Assembly: GCA_022545745.1 (NCBI GenBank)
Contig: JACZQL010000004.1
Span: 1 to 12,378 of the forward strand
From: Deltaproteobacteria bacterium
Lineage (GTDB): Bacteria; Desulfobacterota_B; Binatia; UBA9968
Reading direction: 5' to 3'
DNA: 12,378 nt
A model generated the notes under the pieces. That model saw only the letters and a program-made list of their open reading frames with translations, was not told the origin of the DNA and made no database searches. Made by a program: the position numbers and the translations under genes. Below are positions 2,694 to 10,938 of this stretch, piece after piece (within the stretch, counting starts at the first letter, position 1; each line of letters opens with the position of its first letter).

Positions 2694-3059
2694 CTATTTG
2701 GACAGGTTTTTTTCTATGCAATGAACCACTTCTTCTGCATTGACCGGTTTGGCGATAAAGGGACGACCGGAAATCATGCCCTCTTCATCTTTGGCCACTG
2801 CGGCAGTCAAGAAAACGATCGGGGTATCCTTGAGCGCCTCATCTGCAATGATGTTGGAGGCGACTTCACCTCCATCCATATCCGGCATGACGATGTCGAG
2901 CAGGATGAGATCTGGTTTAAATTGCTTGGCGGCTGCCAGCGCCATCTTTCCCCGGTTCTCGTCTCTCACCTCGTAGGTGCCGGTCTTCTCCAGATAGAGC
3001 TTTAGCACACGCGTAAAGCTTGGCTCATCGTCAATGACAAGAATCTTTTTCTTTGTCAT
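2694..3059 (-). CDS. Single-domain (CheY-like) response regulator
   Basis: This protein of 121 residues is one receiver domain with no output domain. It shows the acidic pair Asp10/Asp11 (VIDDEP), the phospho-acceptor Asp55 (LLDIVMPD), Thr85 (FLTAA) and Lys104 (AKP), so it should accept phosphate. Its ATG overlaps the stop of the upstream PAS histidine kinase in an ATGA arrangement, which points to translational coupling and a cognate pair. It could act as a phosphate shuttle or sink, or bind a partner protein. About 86 of its first 120 residues are identical, without gaps, to the receiver of the receiver-protease fusion at 6341-7834, so the two share an ancestor and perhaps a kinase. The 253 bp between its stop and egtD show no clear terminator. 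Confidence 0.93.
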   Translation of the reverse strand: MTKKKILVIDDEPSFTRVLKLYLEKTGTYEVRDENRGKMALAAAKQFKPDLILLDIVMPDMDGGEVASNIIADEALKDTPIVFLTAAVAKDEEGMISGRPFIAKPVNAEEVVHCIEKNLSK

Positions 3060-4333
3060 TGTGACTCCCTCCTCTGTGCTTTTAACATCATCTCAACCCT
3101 GACACCTCCTTCCTTGCGGTTTCTGATGTCAATCGTTCCGCCGTGCAATTCCATGATCTTGCTCGTCACCGTTAATCCTAAGCCAGTACCTTTCCCGGTT
3201 GGCTTGGTCGTGAAAAAGGGGTCGAAGACCTTTGAAAGCTGGTTTTCGGGGATGCCCGTTCCCGTGTCCTCCACCTCCGCAACGACGACGGTGTCACCCA
3301 CTCTGAGTCGGTCTGCTAGCTTATCCGGTTCCCCGTGACCCCGAGGGTGGCCCCCCTCGTTAAATTGCTTGATGTAGGTTTTAACGGTGAGCGTGCCGCC
3401 TTTTGGCATAGCCTGGATGGCGTTCATCAGAACATTCACGAAGACCTGCTCGATTTTATTTCGATCCAGCCTGACAGGAGGGAGGTCTTCGCCTAGCTCT
3501 TGCAACAAGTGGATGTGGGAACGGTCGAGCTCATGTTTCACCAGGGACAGGGATTGTTCAACGACGAAGTTGAATTCTTCGATTTCCGATAGGAATGTAC
3601 GTGAGGCGGAAAAATTTAACAAACCCTTTATCACGGAGTCAGCCTTCTTAACGGCATTATTGATGTCTTTTAGGATTATGGGAATAGTCTCATCCTTGTC
3701 TGTGAGGGTGTTGGTCAGGTAGTCAACATCCAATTGGATGATGGCAAGTGGGTTCTTGACCTCGTGGGCCACCCCGGCGGCCAATCGGCCGACGGACTCC
3801 AGCTTTTCGGCTTGGATCAATTGCAATTGAGTGGCCTTTAGTTCTTCATGAGTAACCTTTAGGTCCACGAGCGTCTTGGCAAGCATCTTCTCACTTCGGT
3901 TGAGCTCCGAATAAGTCTGCTTTACCTTTGCTTCCGTCTGCTTACGCTTGGTGATCTCATGCGCCATGCTGAGCATGGCACAAACCTCTCCTTGGGGGCC
4001 TAGGATAGGTCGGTAGTGAACGTCGAAATATCGGTGGCCTTCCGGAAAGGGTATCTTTGTATCGGGAAGCGCCATGAGTTCACCCTTCCATACCCTTTCA
4101 TGAAGGTGCCGGTGCTCGGCCATAGCTGGAACCAGGTCATACCAGGTTTTTCCGATCATCTGTTCCACCTCGAGACCTAACATGGTGGCCATTTCTTTGT
4201 TGACCCATTTCACATTCATGTGTCGATCGGAGACCAAGAGACCCAATGGGATCTGGTCCAGAATGGCCTGGCTTTCTAGTTCCAACTGCTTGTGGCTCTC
4301 GCTGATTTGTTTCTGTTGTAGAGTTTTCACCAC
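3056..4333 (-). CDS. Soluble PAS sensor histidine kinase
   Basis: The 425-residue protein has no membrane segment. The order is a PAS domain (about 22-130), a helical linker, a HisKA dimerisation domain with His190 in AAGVAHEVKNPL, and an HATPase_c domain. The ATPase domain shows Asn304 in the N box (NVLMNAIQAMP), DTGTGIP (356-362) and GKGTGLGL (380-387). All catalytic boxes are intact. An insert of about 30 residues (320-350, rich in Gly/His/Pro) sits between the N and G1 boxes. The start is a GTG at 4333, with AGGAT five bases upstream and an in-frame TAG two codons before it. A second GTG follows directly. The PAS domain implies a cytoplasmic signal, but I see no residue pattern that identifies heme or flavin. 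It is coupled to the receiver gene by a 4-base overlap. A sigma-54-type promoter lies about 265 bp upstream. Confidence 0.93.
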   Translation of the reverse strand: MVKTLQQKQISESHKQLELESQAILDQIPLGLLVSDRHMNVKWVNKEMATMLGLEVEQMIGKTWYDLVPAMAEHRHLHERVWKGELMALPDTKIPFPEGHRYFDVHYRPILGPQGEVCAMLSMAHEITKRKQTEAKVKQTYSELNRSEKMLAKTLVDLKVTHEELKATQLQLIQAEKLESVGRLAAGVAHEVKNPLAIIQLDVDYLTNTLTDKDETIPIILKDINNAVKKADSVIKGLLNFSASRTFLSEIEEFNFVVEQSLSLVKHELDRSHIHLLQELGEDLPPVRLDRNKIEQVFVNVLMNAIQAMPKGGTLTVKTYIKQFNEGGHPRGHGEPDKLADRLRVGDTVVVAEVEDTGTGIPENQLSKVFDPFFTTKPTGKGTGLGLTVTSKIMELHGGTIDIRNRKEGGVRVEMMLKAQRRESQ

Positions 4334-4754: not shown

Positions 4755-4818
4755 ACCCCGTGGAGCATTATCCACGACTGAGTTGAGTGGTCTCGACTGA
4801 GAGGTTACTCCACGGGGT
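4755..4818. repeat. 64-bp inverted-terminus repeat, copy B
   Basis: This is the same element as 4425-4488, in the same orientation and 330 bp to the right, with 55 of 64 bases identical. Its ends ACCCCGTGGAGCA and TTACTCCACGGGGT pair almost perfectly. Its last base is also the last base of the membrane kinase's TAA stop codon, so the hairpin begins as that frame ends. No run of T follows on the minus strand, so it is not a typical intrinsic terminator, but it could shield the mRNA 3' end or attenuate read-through. Confidence 0.75.
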
Positions 4819-6047
4819 TAAGCCCGGGTTGGCAAACGAACAATGAACTTTGATCCCTCACCCTGTTTGCTCTCCGCAAGGACCGTTCCTCCATGGGCTT
4901 CCACGATGGATTTCACGCTGAAGAGTCCGAGTCCTGTCCCCTCAATTGTTTCTGCTCCTTTGAGTCTCCGAAACTCGGTGAAGAGTTGTGGCAATGCATC
5001 CTCGGGAATTCCCATCCCCGTGTCTTTCACGCTAATTGACACATGGCCGTCATCCACTCGCGAACTGACGCTAATGGTCCCACCCGATGGCGTAAACTTG
5101 ATGGCGTTACCCACCAAGTTCCACAACACGCGTTCTAATTGAGCTTCATCCCCCATAACGTCAGGGAGGTGCTCATCGAGGTCCATATTCAGGGAAATGT
5201 TTTTCTTTCGTAGCGCTTCCATTTGTTGCTGTCCTAAGTTTTGAATCAGAGGGGTGAGTTTGACGGGCTGTTGCTTCATCTCCATCGTTCCTGATTCTGC
5301 CTTGGTGGCATCGAGAAAACCTGTGACCAGCCTAACGATGCGTTCGCCGTTTTCTTGAATGGCATGGAGGGCCTGCGAGTTTTCTTTGCCATTTTGCCCT
5401 CTTTCGAGGCGAGTGGCTACCGTGTCTGCACAAAACATAATTACGCCTAGGGGATTCTTTATGTCGTGGGCCAAGGCCGATACCAGTTGGCGCTTGAGTT
5501 GCTGCGTCTCCTCAGCATTTTCCGCTCTTTTTTTCTCTTTTTTCACCTGTTCACCGAGATAGCCGTAGAGAAGAGAGACACCGAAGATAAAGGGGATACG
5601 AATCAACGCCTGTGCATCCAAAGCATCCAGACCCCCTTGAAAGGTACTTAACGCCACGGAGACAATGGTGATGATGAAGCACCCTATAACGATTTGGAGA
5701 AGATTTTCGCCAATGGCCGCAATGAATAGCCCAAAGTAGAAAACAATGAAAAGGTCCCAGGGGTTCTCGCGGTTCAATCCGATTGCTACGGAGGTGAGGA
5801 GGGTGTCCACTATAACGAGAATCGGTGCAAAGAGCTTGTGCTCGTAAACACCTAGGGGAAGACGGTAGAGCACAAGCATGAATGCTAGGCTCAATACGAT
5901 CAGCAAATAGGCGCGCGGGTCATTGACCACTTCCCCCTTGCTGAAGAGCACGAAGTAGGAGGTGACGATGACGAGAACCCACTGAAGAGGGACTAGGGTG
6001 TTCTTGCGGGCCTGAAGGCTTTCTTCCGTGTTCACGATGGAAGGCAT
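4818..6047 (-). CDS. Membrane histidine kinase with six N-terminal helices
   Basis: The protein has 409 residues from the ATG at 6047. The first 166 or so residues hold about six hydrophobic helices (roughly 20-37, 46-64, 72-90, 97-112, 115-134, 149-166) with very short loops, so the sensor is probably the membrane bundle itself. A charged coiled-coil stretch (167-188) follows, then HisKA with His194 in ALAHDIKNPL, the N box NLVGNAIKFTP (Asn314), DTGMGIP (342-348) and EGTGLGL (369-375). All kinase boxes are intact. A longer reading from a GTG at 6149 is possible, but its extra 34 residues are unlike a membrane kinase start and coincide with a sigma-54-type promoter, so I prefer 6047, although no clear ribosome binding site precedes it. 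No receiver gene is paired with it directly. The nearest are the protease fusion upstream and the receiver at 2694. Confidence 0.9.
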   Translation of the reverse strand: MPSIVNTEESLQARKNTLVPLQWVLVIVTSYFVLFSKGEVVNDPRAYLLIVLSLAFMLVLYRLPLGVYEHKLFAPILVIVDTLLTSVAIGLNRENPWDLFIVFYFGLFIAAIGENLLQIVIGCFIITIVSVALSTFQGGLDALDAQALIRIPFIFGVSLLYGYLGEQVKKEKKRAENAEETQQLKRQLVSALAHDIKNPLGVIMFCADTVATRLERGQNGKENSQALHAIQENGERIVRLVTGFLDATKAESGTMEMKQQPVKLTPLIQNLGQQQMEALRKKNISLNMDLDEHLPDVMGDEAQLERVLWNLVGNAIKFTPSGGTISVSSRVDDGHVSISVKDTGMGIPEDALPQLFTEFRRLKGAETIEGTGLGLFSVKSIVEAHGGTVLAESKQGEGSKFIVRLPTRA

Positions 6048-6200: not shown

Positions 6201-6244
6201 AATTGTGGGGTCAGACCGCGGATTTATGTCCCCAGAGGACAATT
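6201..6244. repeat. Hairpin-forming intergenic sequence with GGGGTCAGACC
   Basis: AATTGTGGGG (6201-6210) faces CCCC (6230-6233) and ACAATT (6239-6244), giving a nested inverted repeat with a 5-base bulge. It lies between the protease fusion's stop (6341) and the membrane kinase's promoter. From memory, GGGGTCAGACC-type strings recur near REP-associated tyrosine transposase genes in several phyla, but no such gene is in the window. It could also act as a 3' hairpin for the protease transcript. Confidence 0.35.
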
Positions 6245-6340: not shown

Positions 6341-7834
6341 CTACCTGAGTGTCAGAAACTTTAGCGTATCACGACGTAGATCATTTAAATCTAAAATTCT
6401 TCCTATACTTTCAACTCGACCGCGCCTGGAAAAAGTTGGGATACCAACGATACAACCAGAAGACTTGATTGCCACTCCACCAGAGTTTCCGCGATCTGTC
6501 TTGGCAGAAGTTTTTACATAACGGCTTCGTCCATCCACTTCAAAACCAGAAACGATACCCTCAGTCACAGTAAGGGTTTCACCACCGATCCCGGGATAAC
6601 CAAGTATGGATAGATGGTCACCTATATTAACGGATTGGCATAGCGGAGATTTGGCTTCGTCTCGTGCATAGACTACCAAATCATTCTTGGAACCTGCGTG
6701 CTCATTGTTCGTTACCATTTCGGGTTCTATGAAGGCAAGATCTATATCTTCCGCATAGGATTTATGGCTCTTACTCTTGAATAGAAGATAGGAATTGCTA
6801 TCCGAGTAATCCGGATAGAGAGCTATTCTACATTGGGAGACAGAGCGGTCAATGGTTTTAACAACATGAAGGCTCGTTTGAACATAGTACAGCGGAAATT
6901 TAGGGTTGTTACGCGCGGCACGGAATAGCAGGCCAGAGCCCTTTTGAACGTGATTGGAGTACGAACTTGAAAGACAATAGACTTTTACTACAGATGGGGC
7001 GAATTCACTTAATAAGGAACCAGAGACACCACGGTTTTTTGATTCTGAGGCCTTGGTTTCTCCGATACGGACCAGTGTTTTTTCTAGAAGGTCCTCAATG
7101 GCTTTCATTTTTCGCAGGCTATCGTTCTTTTCTGCCAATTGTTTTCCCTGATCATCGATTTTGTTTTGTTGCCTGAGTATGGCTTCACTGGCAGAGAATC
7201 GTATTAACGATAGTTCCTCTTGGGTTTTTTGTAATGCATTGAACGTTTCTTGCTGTGTCTGTTTGGTTTGGCTGTAAATTCTGTATACAAAGAGCCCGGT
7301 CCCGATTAAGAAAACTACCAATATCAATGGAAGCCCATAGCCCGTAGAAATAGTATTGGGTCTCAGGTAGGAAAACTCTTTGCGTTCGTTGCCTTGTTTT
7401 GTTTTTACTGTTGGGCCGATGCCCGGGCCATGCTCCGCTATGAAATCTGACGAGTGTGGGAGTTTTGGGATGGGTCCTAAATGTTCCTGGATGCATTCCA
7501 TCACTTGCTCTGCGGTCACGGGCTTTGAGATGAAAGGAAAGCCGGATATGATGCCCTGCTCATCCTTCGCCAACGCAGCGGTTAAAAATACGATGGGAGT
7601 GTTCTTGAGCTTCGCGTCAGATCTAATCTCAGAGGCAACCTCACCGCCGTCCACATCCGGCATCATGACATCCAGTAGAATCAGGTCTGGCTTAAACCGC
7701 GTTGCGGTTTCTAGAGCCATCTCTCCACGGTTTTCCTCCGTTACCTCATAGGCGCCTGATTTCTCGAGATAGAGCTTCAGGACCCGTGTAAAACTCGGCT
7801 CGTCGTCGATGAGGAGGATCCGTTTTTTCATCAT
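6341..7834 (-). CDS. Receiver domain - TM helix - coiled coil - trypsin-like serine protease fusion
   Basis: The protein has 497 residues from the first of two adjacent ATGs (7834). Residues 4-120 are a complete receiver: Asp10/Asp11, phospho-acceptor Asp55 in LLDVMMPD, Thr85 and Lys104. A polar linker (121-165) leads to one hydrophobic helix (about 167-185, LPLILVVFLIGTGLFVY). A Gln/Glu/Lys-rich coiled coil follows (about 187-255). Residues 278-480 form a trypsin-fold domain of the HtrA-like (Trypsin_2) type without a PDZ domain: GSGLLF (299-304), His323 in SLHVV, Asp365 in DIDLAF, LGYPG (411-415), and Ser451 in GNSGG. The triad is complete. The receiver must be cytoplasmic, so a single helix places the protease in the periplasm. 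Four cysteines lie in that part. A longer reading from a TTG at 7915 overlaps a sigma-54-type promoter, so I reject it. Substrate and activation mode are unknown. Confidence 0.9.
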   Translation of the reverse strand: MMKKRILLIDDEPSFTRVLKLYLEKSGAYEVTEENRGEMALETATRFKPDLILLDVMMPDVDGGEVASEIRSDAKLKNTPIVFLTAALAKDEQGIISGFPFISKPVTAEQVMECIQEHLGPIPKLPHSSDFIAEHGPGIGPTVKTKQGNERKEFSYLRPNTISTGYGLPLILVVFLIGTGLFVYRIYSQTKQTQQETFNALQKTQEELSLIRFSASEAILRQQNKIDDQGKQLAEKNDSLRKMKAIEDLLEKTLVRIGETKASESKNRGVSGSLLSEFAPSVVKVYCLSSSYSNHVQKGSGLLFRAARNNPKFPLYYVQTSLHVVKTIDRSVSQCRIALYPDYSDSNSYLLFKSKSHKSYAEDIDLAFIEPEMVTNNEHAGSKNDLVVYARDEAKSPLCQSVNIGDHLSILGYPGIGGETLTVTEGIVSGFEVDGRSRYVKTSAKTDRGNSGGVAIKSSGCIVGIPTFSRRGRVESIGRILDLNDLRRDTLKFLTLR

Positions 7835-7908: not shown

Positions 7909-7925
7909 AGCACAAGTTGTGCCAA
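7909..7925 (-). promoter_or_regulatory. Sigma-54-type (-24/-12) promoter ahead of the receiver-protease gene
   Basis: The minus strand reads TTGGCACAACTTGTGCT, with TGGCAC as in the sigma-54 consensus, GG at 7923-7922 and GC at 7911-7910, 10 bases apart. Transcription would start near 7898, leaving a leader of about 64 bases before the ATG at 7834. It is the best match to consensus on the -24 side among the three sites of the cluster. Confidence 0.6.
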
Positions 7926-8155: not shown

Positions 8156-8902
8156 TCATCTACAGGCTGAGATGAATGAAGAGAAGATTTTCCTCTGGGG
8201 AAGGTTACGCTCGATCAGAAACTCGGGGTGCCACTGGACTCCGAGGACGAAGCTGTGTTCCTTGCTTTCAATGCCTTCGATAATTCCATCTTCCGCGGTG
8301 GCATTCGTGATCAATCCCCTGCCAGGATCCTTGACCGCCTGGTGATGGGTGGTATTTACCTTGAGAACTTTGCAGCCCACGATCCGATGAAGTTTCGTTT
8401 TAGGGAGGATGTTGATGAAATGGCTGCTCTGTACTTTTGGGGTCCTCTGCTCATGTTGTAGAGCATGGGGTAGCTGCGTGGCGATATCCTGGTAAAGGGA
8501 TCCGCCCAGAACGACGTTGATGGCCTGTTGGCCTCCGCACACCCCAAGGATTGGAAGGTCTCGCTCCAGAGCTAAAGAGATCAATTCAAGCTCAAATCGC
8601 GTTCGCTCTTTTTTGATCTCTCCAAGGGGCTCTAAGGGTTTCTCACCATATAGAATCGGGTTGATGTCAAAATTTCCTCCCGTCACCAGAATGCCATCGA
8701 GCCGATCCAAGGCCTTTTTCAATGTTCTTCGGGAAAAAATCATGGGCAGGATCATGGGAATTCCACCCGCGTTGAGAACCGCTTGGTTATATCGGTGTGA
8801 CAGAAAGAGGTTTGAGTCGTTTAGATTGGCGGAGGTGTCACGAGTTACGACGTCAGGCGTGACACCGATGATGGGTGCTTCACTATTTTGGCGTTTTCTC
8901 AC
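8156..8902 (-). CDS. Class I glutamine-amidotransferase-like gamma-glutamyl hydrolase (peptidase C26, PuuD-like)
   Basis: The protein has 248 residues, normal for the family of gamma-glutamyl-GABA hydrolases and related C26 peptidases, which cut gamma-glutamyl amide bonds with a Cys/His/Glu triad. The nucleophile is Cys122 in GVCGGQQAINV, and the partners are His225 and Glu227 in QWHPE. VNTTHHQAV (182-190) is a family hallmark. The nucleophile elbow reads CGGQ where PuuD proteins usually have CRGxQ. The GTG start overlaps the stop of the lytic transglycosylase gene (GTGA), so the two are translated as one unit. No putrescine-degradation genes are nearby, so a PuuD role is not supported. Pairing with a murein enzyme suggests gamma-D-glutamyl bonds of peptidoglycan fragments as a possible substrate. 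That substrate is inference only. No signal peptide is seen, so it is cytoplasmic. Confidence 0.88.
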   Translation of the reverse strand: MRKRQNSEAPIIGVTPDVVTRDTSANLNDSNLFLSHRYNQAVLNAGGIPMILPMIFSRRTLKKALDRLDGILVTGGNFDINPILYGEKPLEPLGEIKKERTRFELELISLALERDLPILGVCGGQQAINVVLGGSLYQDIATQLPHALQHEQRTPKVQSSHFINILPKTKLHRIVGCKVLKVNTTHHQAVKDPGRGLITNATAEDGIIEGIESKEHSFVLGVQWHPEFLIERNLPQRKIFSSFISACR

Positions 8903-10938
8903 GGCTGATTGTCATAGAGTTCTTTGTAAGTCCAGTAGTTGCGCAACACGAGTTTCACATATCCACGGGTTTCCCGATAGGGAATTCTCTCGATGAATTC
9001 CTCTTCATCCAAGGAAGCGAATCTCTTTTTCCAGCGATTGACCGGACGTCTCCCGGCATTATAGGCGGCCAATGCCTTGGCCAGGCTGTTTGGATATATT
9101 TCAACCAGTCTCTGGAGATGGTGGATGCCCAGCCTGAGGTTGAGATCCGGCTCGAAAAGTTTCTCGGGCCCCGGATACAGAAGACCCATGTTTGCCGCTT
9201 CACGCCCAGCAGTAGAGGGGAGGAGTTGCATCAGGCCCAGTGCTGATGCTGGAGAGATGGCGTCCGGGTCAAAAAGGCTCTCCTGTCGGATCAGCGCCAA
9301 TATCAAATAGGGATCCAGTCCTCTCTCGGCCGCTTCCTTTTTTATGATTTCCCAATAGGCTAGGGGGTAGCGATACCGTCTAAACTCCTCAGAGGAATTA
9401 CCGAATTGTATAGCCAGCGCCACGCTTCGATCGTAGCCCTGATTGCGGGCGTACTGCTGCATCAGCATTATCCTTAAACTTGAATCCTTGCCGGTTTGGT
9501 CCCTGACTCGATCCAACTCGGCCACTGCAAATCGCTGGTGCGACAGGTCCGACAGTTTCTGCGCGCGAGCGAGATGAAAGGAGAGGTTTTGATTGGAAGG
9601 AACCGTCGGGTTTGGCAGGGTCTGACCGTCCACCGGTTTTCTTTTCTCTATCACCTCTCCCAGCCTGCGCAGGGCATTTCTCGATGGCTTTTTGTAATAA
9701 CTGTCGCCCGTTCGACTCAAGATCTGCCGGTAAAGGCCTTTGGCTTCCTCTTGATTTCCCAACTGCTCCGCAGTTCGTGCCTGCCAGAATCGGGCCCCGG
9801 TCCTGTAGTGCTCGGGGTAAATGCCTGTGGCTATACGTTTGAAAGCGGCATGTGCCTCGTCGTAATCAGCTGCGAGGTAATGAATCCAGGCCATTCTCCA
9901 GGTGGCCTGTGCGCCCCAACGGCTACGGGGAAAGTTTTTGGAAAAATTGCGGTAAATTTGTATCGCTTCAGATGGGATCTTTAGAGACTCGTAGATACGA
10001 CCCCTGGCGAATTCAGCATGATCAATGTCCGGACTCTCGGGGTAGCGTTCCCTCAACTGGTTAAATCCCGTGAGGGCCTCACGATTCTTACCCTGATTCC
10101 AAAAAATTTCTGCGATACGATAGAAGGCATCGGCTGCTTCGGGTGTTTGAGGAAACTCCCGCACGATCTGGTTCAGAACTTCTTTCTCTTGATCCCTTTT
10201 GCGCGCCCTACGGTACACCTCGGCGAGGCCATTGAGAGAGGAAAATTGGACACTTTTCTTCGCATCGAGACCGGGCAGGGCACGGTAAATTTTTTCTGCT
10301 TCGGAGTAATCCAGTTCGCCTAGGAGGATTTCCGCCTCTTTCAACAGGGGACCGGGTTTCTCTGCTCCGAGGAGTACCGGGAACTGTTCTCGTAGTTTCC
10401 GCGCCTCTTTTTTTGCCTTGCCGGCCCATGCGGAGAGGGGGAAGGTGGCTCGTAATCTCTGGTAGGATTCGAAGGCTCGCTTTGGGTCCCCTTGTTTTTC
10501 GTAGGTCTGGCCGAGGAGGTAGAGGGCTTCAGTGAACAACGGTTCCCCGACCCTTCTCGATCCAAGGGAGGTCAGTAACCCAATGGCCTGGTGGGGTGCT
10601 CCTTCTTTGAGTGAAATTTTTGCCAGATGAAAGTTTGTGTCATGCAGCCAAACACTTCGGGGGAAATCATTTTTAAGCCGTCCGAAATAGTCTCGAGCTT
10701 GGTCGAAGGAATCTTGGGAAAAAGAGATGACACCGAGAAAGTAAAGGTTATAGTCTTCCAGGATCGTTTTTTGGTCCAGGGATTTTCGAAAGAGGGGCTC
10801 TGCTTCGGTAAGCTTCCCTTGCTCAAAAAGGGCATAAGCTTTAGAGAAAGGATCGCGGGGTGGTTCCGTCGCCGAGTCTATCACACCAGGGTGTGTCAGC
10901 CAGAAAAGATGGAAAAGAAGAACCAACACCTTGTTCAT
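8899..10938 (-). CDS. Periplasmic TPR-containing soluble lytic transglycosylase (Slt70-like)
   Basis: The protein has 679 residues. A signal peptide (about 1-23, hydrophobic core LVLLFHLFWL) is followed by a long array of TPR-like helical repeats (about 30-430) in place of the alpha-superhelical U domain of Slt70. A C-terminal SLT domain (about 525-675) completes it. The catalytic Glu553 sits in IRQESLFDP, followed by SALGLMQLLPSTA (565-577), AAYNAG (624-629) and the end motif IPYRETRGYV (652-661). The enzyme cleaves the MurNAc-GlcNAc bond of peptidoglycan and forms 1,6-anhydro ends. The TPR array suggests it docks with envelope proteins. The start ATG is preceded only by a weak AAG. It is the first gene of an operon with the C26 hydrolase and diverges from yggS across about 100 bp, where I cannot assign promoters with confidence. 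Confidence 0.93.
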   Translation of the reverse strand: MNKVLVLLFHLFWLTHPGVIDSATEPPRDPFSKAYALFEQGKLTEAEPLFRKSLDQKTILEDYNLYFLGVISFSQDSFDQARDYFGRLKNDFPRSVWLHDTNFHLAKISLKEGAPHQAIGLLTSLGSRRVGEPLFTEALYLLGQTYEKQGDPKRAFESYQRLRATFPLSAWAGKAKKEARKLREQFPVLLGAEKPGPLLKEAEILLGELDYSEAEKIYRALPGLDAKKSVQFSSLNGLAEVYRRARKRDQEKEVLNQIVREFPQTPEAADAFYRIAEIFWNQGKNREALTGFNQLRERYPESPDIDHAEFARGRIYESLKIPSEAIQIYRNFSKNFPRSRWGAQATWRMAWIHYLAADYDEAHAAFKRIATGIYPEHYRTGARFWQARTAEQLGNQEEAKGLYRQILSRTGDSYYKKPSRNALRRLGEVIEKRKPVDGQTLPNPTVPSNQNLSFHLARAQKLSDLSHQRFAVAELDRVRDQTGKDSSLRIMLMQQYARNQGYDRSVALAIQFGNSSEEFRRYRYPLAYWEIIKKEAAERGLDPYLILALIRQESLFDPDAISPASALGLMQLLPSTAGREAANMGLLYPGPEKLFEPDLNLRLGIHHLQRLVEIYPNSLAKALAAYNAGRRPVNRWKKRFASLDEEEFIERIPYRETRGYVKLVLRNYWTYKELYDNQP

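Follow-up and report, generated by a model that had tools for sequence, protein, structure and literature searches.

A response-regulator receiver joined to a trypsin-like serine protease through a predicted transmembrane helix: a putative inside-out two-component output

A receiver and a serine protease in one chain

We analyzed a 12,378-nucleotide stretch of DNA from a Deltaproteobacteria bacterium (contig JACZQL010000004.1 of assembly GCA_022545745.1; the whole stretch is called the window below) and found that the gene at 6341..7834 encodes a fusion protein with a response-regulator receiver at its N-terminus and a trypsin-like serine protease near its C-terminus. We lean towards the view, first proposed in a first-pass annotation of this DNA, that the fusion is an inside-out two-component output. 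It would then be a response regulator that spans the membrane and acts through an HtrA/DegS-like protease outside the cytoplasm. This reading is the best supported because the receiver and the protease are equally conserved, Asp55 (D55) of the receiver and four cysteines of the protease are invariant, and histidine kinase genes adjoin. As read from sequence and structure model, the domains follow in the order listed below, the phosphorylation and catalytic residues are intact, and both ends of the protein are conserved.

6341..7834, minus strand: fusion gene, receiver - linker - transmembrane (TM) helix - coiled coil - trypsin-like protease; 497 amino acids, ATG at 7834, stop at 6341
7490..7819, minus strand: receiver domain, residues 6-115; Pfam Response_reg, E 2.3e-19; D10, D11, D55, T85, K104
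7334..7474, minus strand: linker, residues 121-167; modelled with low confidence, mean pairwise identity 0.26
7277..7333, minus strand: single TM helix, residues 168-186, by hydropathy; lies within a model helix at 168-257 (low confidence)
7049..7276, minus strand: coiled coil, residues 187-262; heptad pattern and helix in the model
6380..7012, minus strand: HtrA/DegS-like serine protease domain, residues 275-485; H323, D365, S451; Pfam Trypsin_2, model, Foldseek, VIA and conservation

The longest open reading frame reaches farther, to a TTG at 7915, and the ATG at 7834 was kept as the start because P0002, a close homologue, has the same length of 497 amino acids. The five receiver residues listed above, which the first-pass annotation had named as those of phosphorylation, were all found at their positions within the Response_reg match, and the intact triad that it had described in a trypsin-fold domain was confirmed by a residue check and by the Trypsin_2 match (residues 317-465, E 6.2e-9; its 37.2 bits exceed the cut-off of 27.6), with N450 preceding the catalytic S451. 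No Pfam domain besides these two was found in the fusion at E 0.01. Two hydropathy analyses agreed on one hydrophobic segment with its maximum at 168-186, in keeping with the single TM helix previously placed at 167-185, and the predicted coiled coil was likewise recovered as an a/d heptad pattern from residue 184 onward (best register 58% and 64% hydrophobic) together with the one helix of the full-length model. That model had a mean predicted local distance difference test score (pLDDT) of 60.6 with a poor protease half, and its low quality kept it out of the fold search; the protease domain modelled alone reached 90.7. The fold neighbours of the protease include the periplasmic DegS and DegP, so that the earlier comparison with DegS stands alongside the Trypsin_2 assignment; since plant Deg2 and Deg9 head the list of neighbours, the fold says little about the side of the membrane.

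Within the receiver, the Thr85-Lys104 span is 19 residues long in 22 rows of the alignment of receiver-bearing relatives described below (A1) and 23 in 16, and the low-confidence full-length model has no alpha4 helix at residues 85-104. A PADLOC match to RT-Protease_XI (E 6.5e-8) covered the trypsin part alone, and no defence assignment was made.

The fusion is conserved in other proteins

A protein search with the fusion, in which each row is a 90% cluster, gave 1464 matches, and among the best 120 of these both Pfam domains occur in 35 further proteins, whose longest contigs all differ in size, some being nearly alike. The layout of the fusion is thus shared by dozens of relatives. Three more rows have the receiver only: P0022 and P0025, in which the protease is cut or broken in alignment A1, and P0038, which comes from a 1,224-base contig and stands outside that alignment. 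The explanation that an assembly or sequencing error joined two genes, which the first-pass annotation had raised against its own proposal, is effectively refuted, because so many other proteins from contigs of differing size carry both domains and because receiver and protease are conserved to the same degree.

Over 34 of the 38 receiver rows of alignment A1, mean pairwise identity was 0.64 in both the receiver and the protease, compared to 0.46 in the TM helix, 0.37 in the coiled coil and 0.26 in the linker. D10, D55, T85 and K104 were retained in all 36 comparable rows and D11 in 35 of them, and D55 was kept in all nine rows that are less than 75% identical to one another. With both ends equally conserved and the phosphorylation residues kept, both look held by selection. 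As judged from these alignments, the receiver-TM-protease architecture is real and conserved.

Relatives with other N-terminal heads

An alignment of the protease part was made from 104 of the first 110 rows (P0022, P0025, P0038, P0054, P0056 and P0095 were omitted). The N-terminal head of these rows is a receiver in 36, a zinc-ribbon motif in 35 and none that was recognised in 33; among the best 120 of 1464 matches, the named head-less rows are mainly from Patescibacteria. The cysteines C287, C335, C399 and C461 are invariant (104/104), and the catalytic triad is intact in 101 rows. In alignment A2 the zinc-ribbon and head-less proteins are 36-59% identical to the fusion and have the same TM helix, coiled coil, protease, four cysteines and triad; they differ in carrying a zinc ribbon or an unrecognised head where the fusion has its receiver. 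By every mark of the wider family, that is, a TM helix, a coiled coil and a trypsin domain with four invariant cysteines, the fusion belongs to it. On sequence grounds, then, the fusion is not unique: other members of its protease family can have a zinc ribbon or an unrecognised head where it has the receiver.

A clade of the 36 receiver fusions alone was rejected (p 0.00013), as P0008 and P0019 fall inside it, while a clade of the fusions together with P0008 and P0019 (38 rows) was not rejected (p 0.849); this second group was picked after the tree had been seen, and its high p is no proof of a clade. The simplest account of the alignment and tree would be that the receiver was gained once and lost two or more times. 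P0008 and P0019, which are known from protein rows rather than from DNA, could also be gene fragments. We regard it as about evenly balanced whether the fusions form a two-component output class of their own, which would couple phosphorylation of a cytoplasmic receiver to the control of proteolysis beyond the inner membrane in one polypeptide and would have arisen once as a receiver took the cytosolic N-terminal slot of the zinc-ribbon/head-less membrane protease family.

Receivers 57-67% identical to that of the fusion are attached to a class III nucleotide cyclase domain in P0111-P0114 and P0116, and the lineage of this receiver has therefore been joined to at least two enzymes. Similar receivers stand in tandem in P0054 and P0056, the latter with three receiver stretches by Pfam.

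Adjoining kinases and the proposed mechanism

Two candidate partner kinases and a second receiver are encoded near the fusion gene:

4818..6047, minus strand: histidine kinase directly downstream, 409 amino acids; Pfam HisKA and HATPase_c; candidate partner
3056..4333, minus strand: PAS histidine kinase, TM segment absent at the threshold used; candidate partner
2694..3059, minus strand: stand-alone receiver; its gene shares 4 bases with that of the PAS kinase

The start of the downstream kinase was set from the length of its homologues, and hydropathy places several hydrophobic segments within its residues 17-134. The first helix of a receiver (alpha1) sets the choice of kinase. The stand-alone receiver shares 86 of 121 residues, and 13 of 14 in alpha1, with the fused one, and for that reason a single kinase may serve both.

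We infer that phosphate is transferred to the receiver and that its phosphorylation controls the protease. Asp55 would be phosphorylated by one of the adjoining histidine kinases, the PAS kinase whose gene overlaps the sister receiver gene or the downstream membrane kinase; the phosphorylated receiver would then change its self-association or its binding of a partner. Since a flexible linker carries the receiver, this change would bring chains together or apart via the TM helix and the coiled coil and not through a rigid rod, and the protease would thereby be switched or gathered across the inner membrane from the receiver. Its substrate is likely an envelope protein. The receiver is predicted to face the cytoplasm and the protease the periplasm, since the receiver must meet its kinase in the cytoplasm and one TM helix follows, with the invariant cysteines and a DegS-like anchor in further agreement.

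Points against the proposal and alternative explanations

Several findings weigh against the inside-out account. The span from receiver to TM helix (counted from residue 119) varies from 20 to 50 residues over 38 rows and the pLDDT of the linker is below 50; a linker this long, variable and poorly modelled speaks against a rigid signal rod and favors control by the gathering of chains. A catalytic residue is changed in 3 of 36 fusions (P0009, P0017 and P0021) as against 0 of 68 other rows, which argues against a simple protease output. On the protease tree the close relatives P0008 and P0019, which lack the receiver, are nested among the fusions. The stand-alone and fused receivers are less alike at beta5-alpha5 (5/7) and in alpha5 (6/13). 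Contigs appear to be shared with kinase relatives for only 3 of the 13 fusion relatives between P0002 and P0041 on contigs longer than 10 kb, one of the three being receiver-less, with sharing judged by size and not by DNA, and no receiver gene was present at five of eight loci around relatives of the downstream kinase. Finally, of the 38 receiver rows, 8 have more lysine plus arginine on the N side of the TM helix and 24 have more on the C side, and short-headed relatives have more of these residues on the C side in 8 of 8. By net charge, the N side exceeds the C side in 19 of the 38 receiver rows, and with flank charges so mixed the positive-inside rule leaves their topology undecided.

This indecision, and the reversed flanks of the short-headed rows, would suit an arrangement in which both domains are cytoplasmic and the hydrophobic helix merely docks the protein to the membrane. 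We consider this very unlikely: a single, clear TM segment is present at the threshold used in 34 of 38 rows, the four cysteines never vary, and the zinc-ribbon rows have N-in flanks, the N side being the more positive by net charge in 13 of 14. The periplasmic DegS and DegP among the fold neighbours say little here, given the rank of plant Deg2 and Deg9. Another explanation accepts the membrane-spanning layout and treats the receiver as a tether or address tag that holds the protease near a kinase or a site in the cell, so that phosphorylation sets location or turnover and not catalysis. The long, variable and poorly conserved linker fits such a role, as does the zinc ribbon or unrecognised head of 68 of the 104 rows, in which the protease part exists without a receiver; the retention of D10, D55, T85 and K104 in every comparable fusion goes beyond the needs of a plain tether, and we hold this explanation to be unlikely, if still worth weight.

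The signal might also run from outside to inside, the HtrA-like domain sensing misfolded envelope proteins and altering the uptake or release of phosphate by the receiver, which would compete with the stand-alone receiver for the kinase. HtrA proteases such as DegS are sensors, the nearly identical alpha1 and overall likeness of the two receivers would fit such competition, and the three fusions with a changed catalytic residue have nonetheless kept D55. Against this, 33 of the 36 fusions keep a complete triad, and the PDZ domain, which is the sensing part of DegS, was not found in the fusion by Pfam, the chain ending soon after the protease. Outside-in signalling therefore seems distinctly improbable to us.

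Comparison with known systems

The fusion resembles DegS/HtrA proteases in its trypsin fold with a His-Asp-Ser triad, and differs from them in its lack of a PDZ domain, its four invariant cysteines, its long coiled coil and the receiver at its N-terminus. Control of DegS comes from the periplasm, and Rv3671c is a membrane protease that is not known to carry a receiver. Response regulators with enzymatic output, such as CheB, likewise carry a receiver and an enzyme on one chain; in the fusion, however, the enzyme sits beyond a TM helix. In working principle the nearest system is LapD-LapG, in which, according to the part of PMC3032545 consulted, a cytoplasmic signal crosses the inner membrane and controls a periplasmic protease. 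There the signal read by LapD is cyclic di-GMP (c-di-GMP), and the cysteine protease, LapG, is a protein of its own, whereas the fusion has its receiver and a serine protease in one chain; c-di-GMP-binding EAL/GGDEF domains and HAMP domains of the LapD type were not found in it by Pfam.

The first-pass annotation knew of no characterised protein with this order, and that held up within the literature searched, where we found no described protein of receiver-TM-protease order; two key reviews of output domains lay outside the search, which leaves absence from print unproved. The words protease and peptidase are absent from the main text of PMC1183210, which omits other enzymatic outputs, and of PMC5847659, which covers archaea and whose section 14 lists the enzymatic outputs of archaeal response regulators, a protease not being among them. 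In the portion of PMC12471899 consulted, the protease passages concern the degradation of regulators. Within these searches, the architecture is undescribed. If the inside-out account is true, a two-component output would leave the cytoplasm within the same protein that takes the phosphate, which would widen the repertoire of such outputs, and the fusion would offer a compact system in which to study receiver signalling across a membrane, with the zinc-ribbon and head-less relatives as natural comparisons.

Distribution

The distribution of the fusion looks patchy, because it was not found with the TM-protease profile A2, used without a positive control, in any of 35 genomes from the order to which the host likely belongs, and because P0129, a close relative (81%) of the upstream transglycosylase, lies on a contig of 4,459,497 bases that has no counterpart of that size among the best 120 of 1464 fusion matches. 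Over the genome sets scanned, profile A2 gave 0/297, 0/35, 0/334, 0/46 and 0/77; these sets partly overlap and a positive control is absent, so the zeros show little. A scan of genomes with A1 gave at least 80 loci and was dominated by ordinary receivers; the 80 loci retained match query residues within 1-222, and the scan is uninformative on the fusion. The protease part of the window's protein had no match in phages; viral contigs gave three weak matches over 64-71 residues, and plasmids, searched with P0059, gave one weak match.

The locus around the fusion gene

At E 1e-100 the downstream kinase is present in 10 of 35 genomes of the likely host order. When its relatives (the best 120 of 6641 matches) were compared with those of the fusion, contigs of equal size suggested shared contigs of 353726 bases (P0019, P0211), 51927 bases (P0014, P0214, P0224) and 11535 bases (P0012, P0218), matched by size in bases and not by DNA; the first also matches P0127, a relative of the upstream transglycosylase. 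The equal 2335-base contigs of P0007 (ncbi) and P0302 (ena) were ascribed to chance, as their sources differ. At three of the eight loci around relatives of this kinase a receiver gene lies just downstream (L119 and L120 by Pfam, L121 by eye), and the second receiver of L119 resembles the stand-alone receiver of the window (49% over 122 residues). At L123-L126 the kinase relative sits after a gene with a GHRGA/APENT motif, putatively glycerophosphodiesterase-like, and is itself followed by a HEAT-repeat protein at L125 and L126.

8156-10938, upstream of the fusion gene: transglycosylase with tetratricopeptide repeats, then a peptidase C26 amidotransferase

Within one order this pair occurs at 16 of 17 loci, and relatives of the transglycosylase are named Candidatus Binatia and Deltaproteobacteria. 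The window makes up a whole contig of 12,378 bases (P0122). No Rfam match and no tRNA was found in the window, which has 8 promoter-like sites (5.5 in shuffles) and 9 terminator-like sites (6.8 in shuffles). The stretch at 6203-6241, between the fusion gene and the downstream kinase gene, contains two short hairpins, one around GGGGTCAGACC and one around GTCCCCAGAGGAC; neither motif has a second copy in the window, so that a repeat is not shown.
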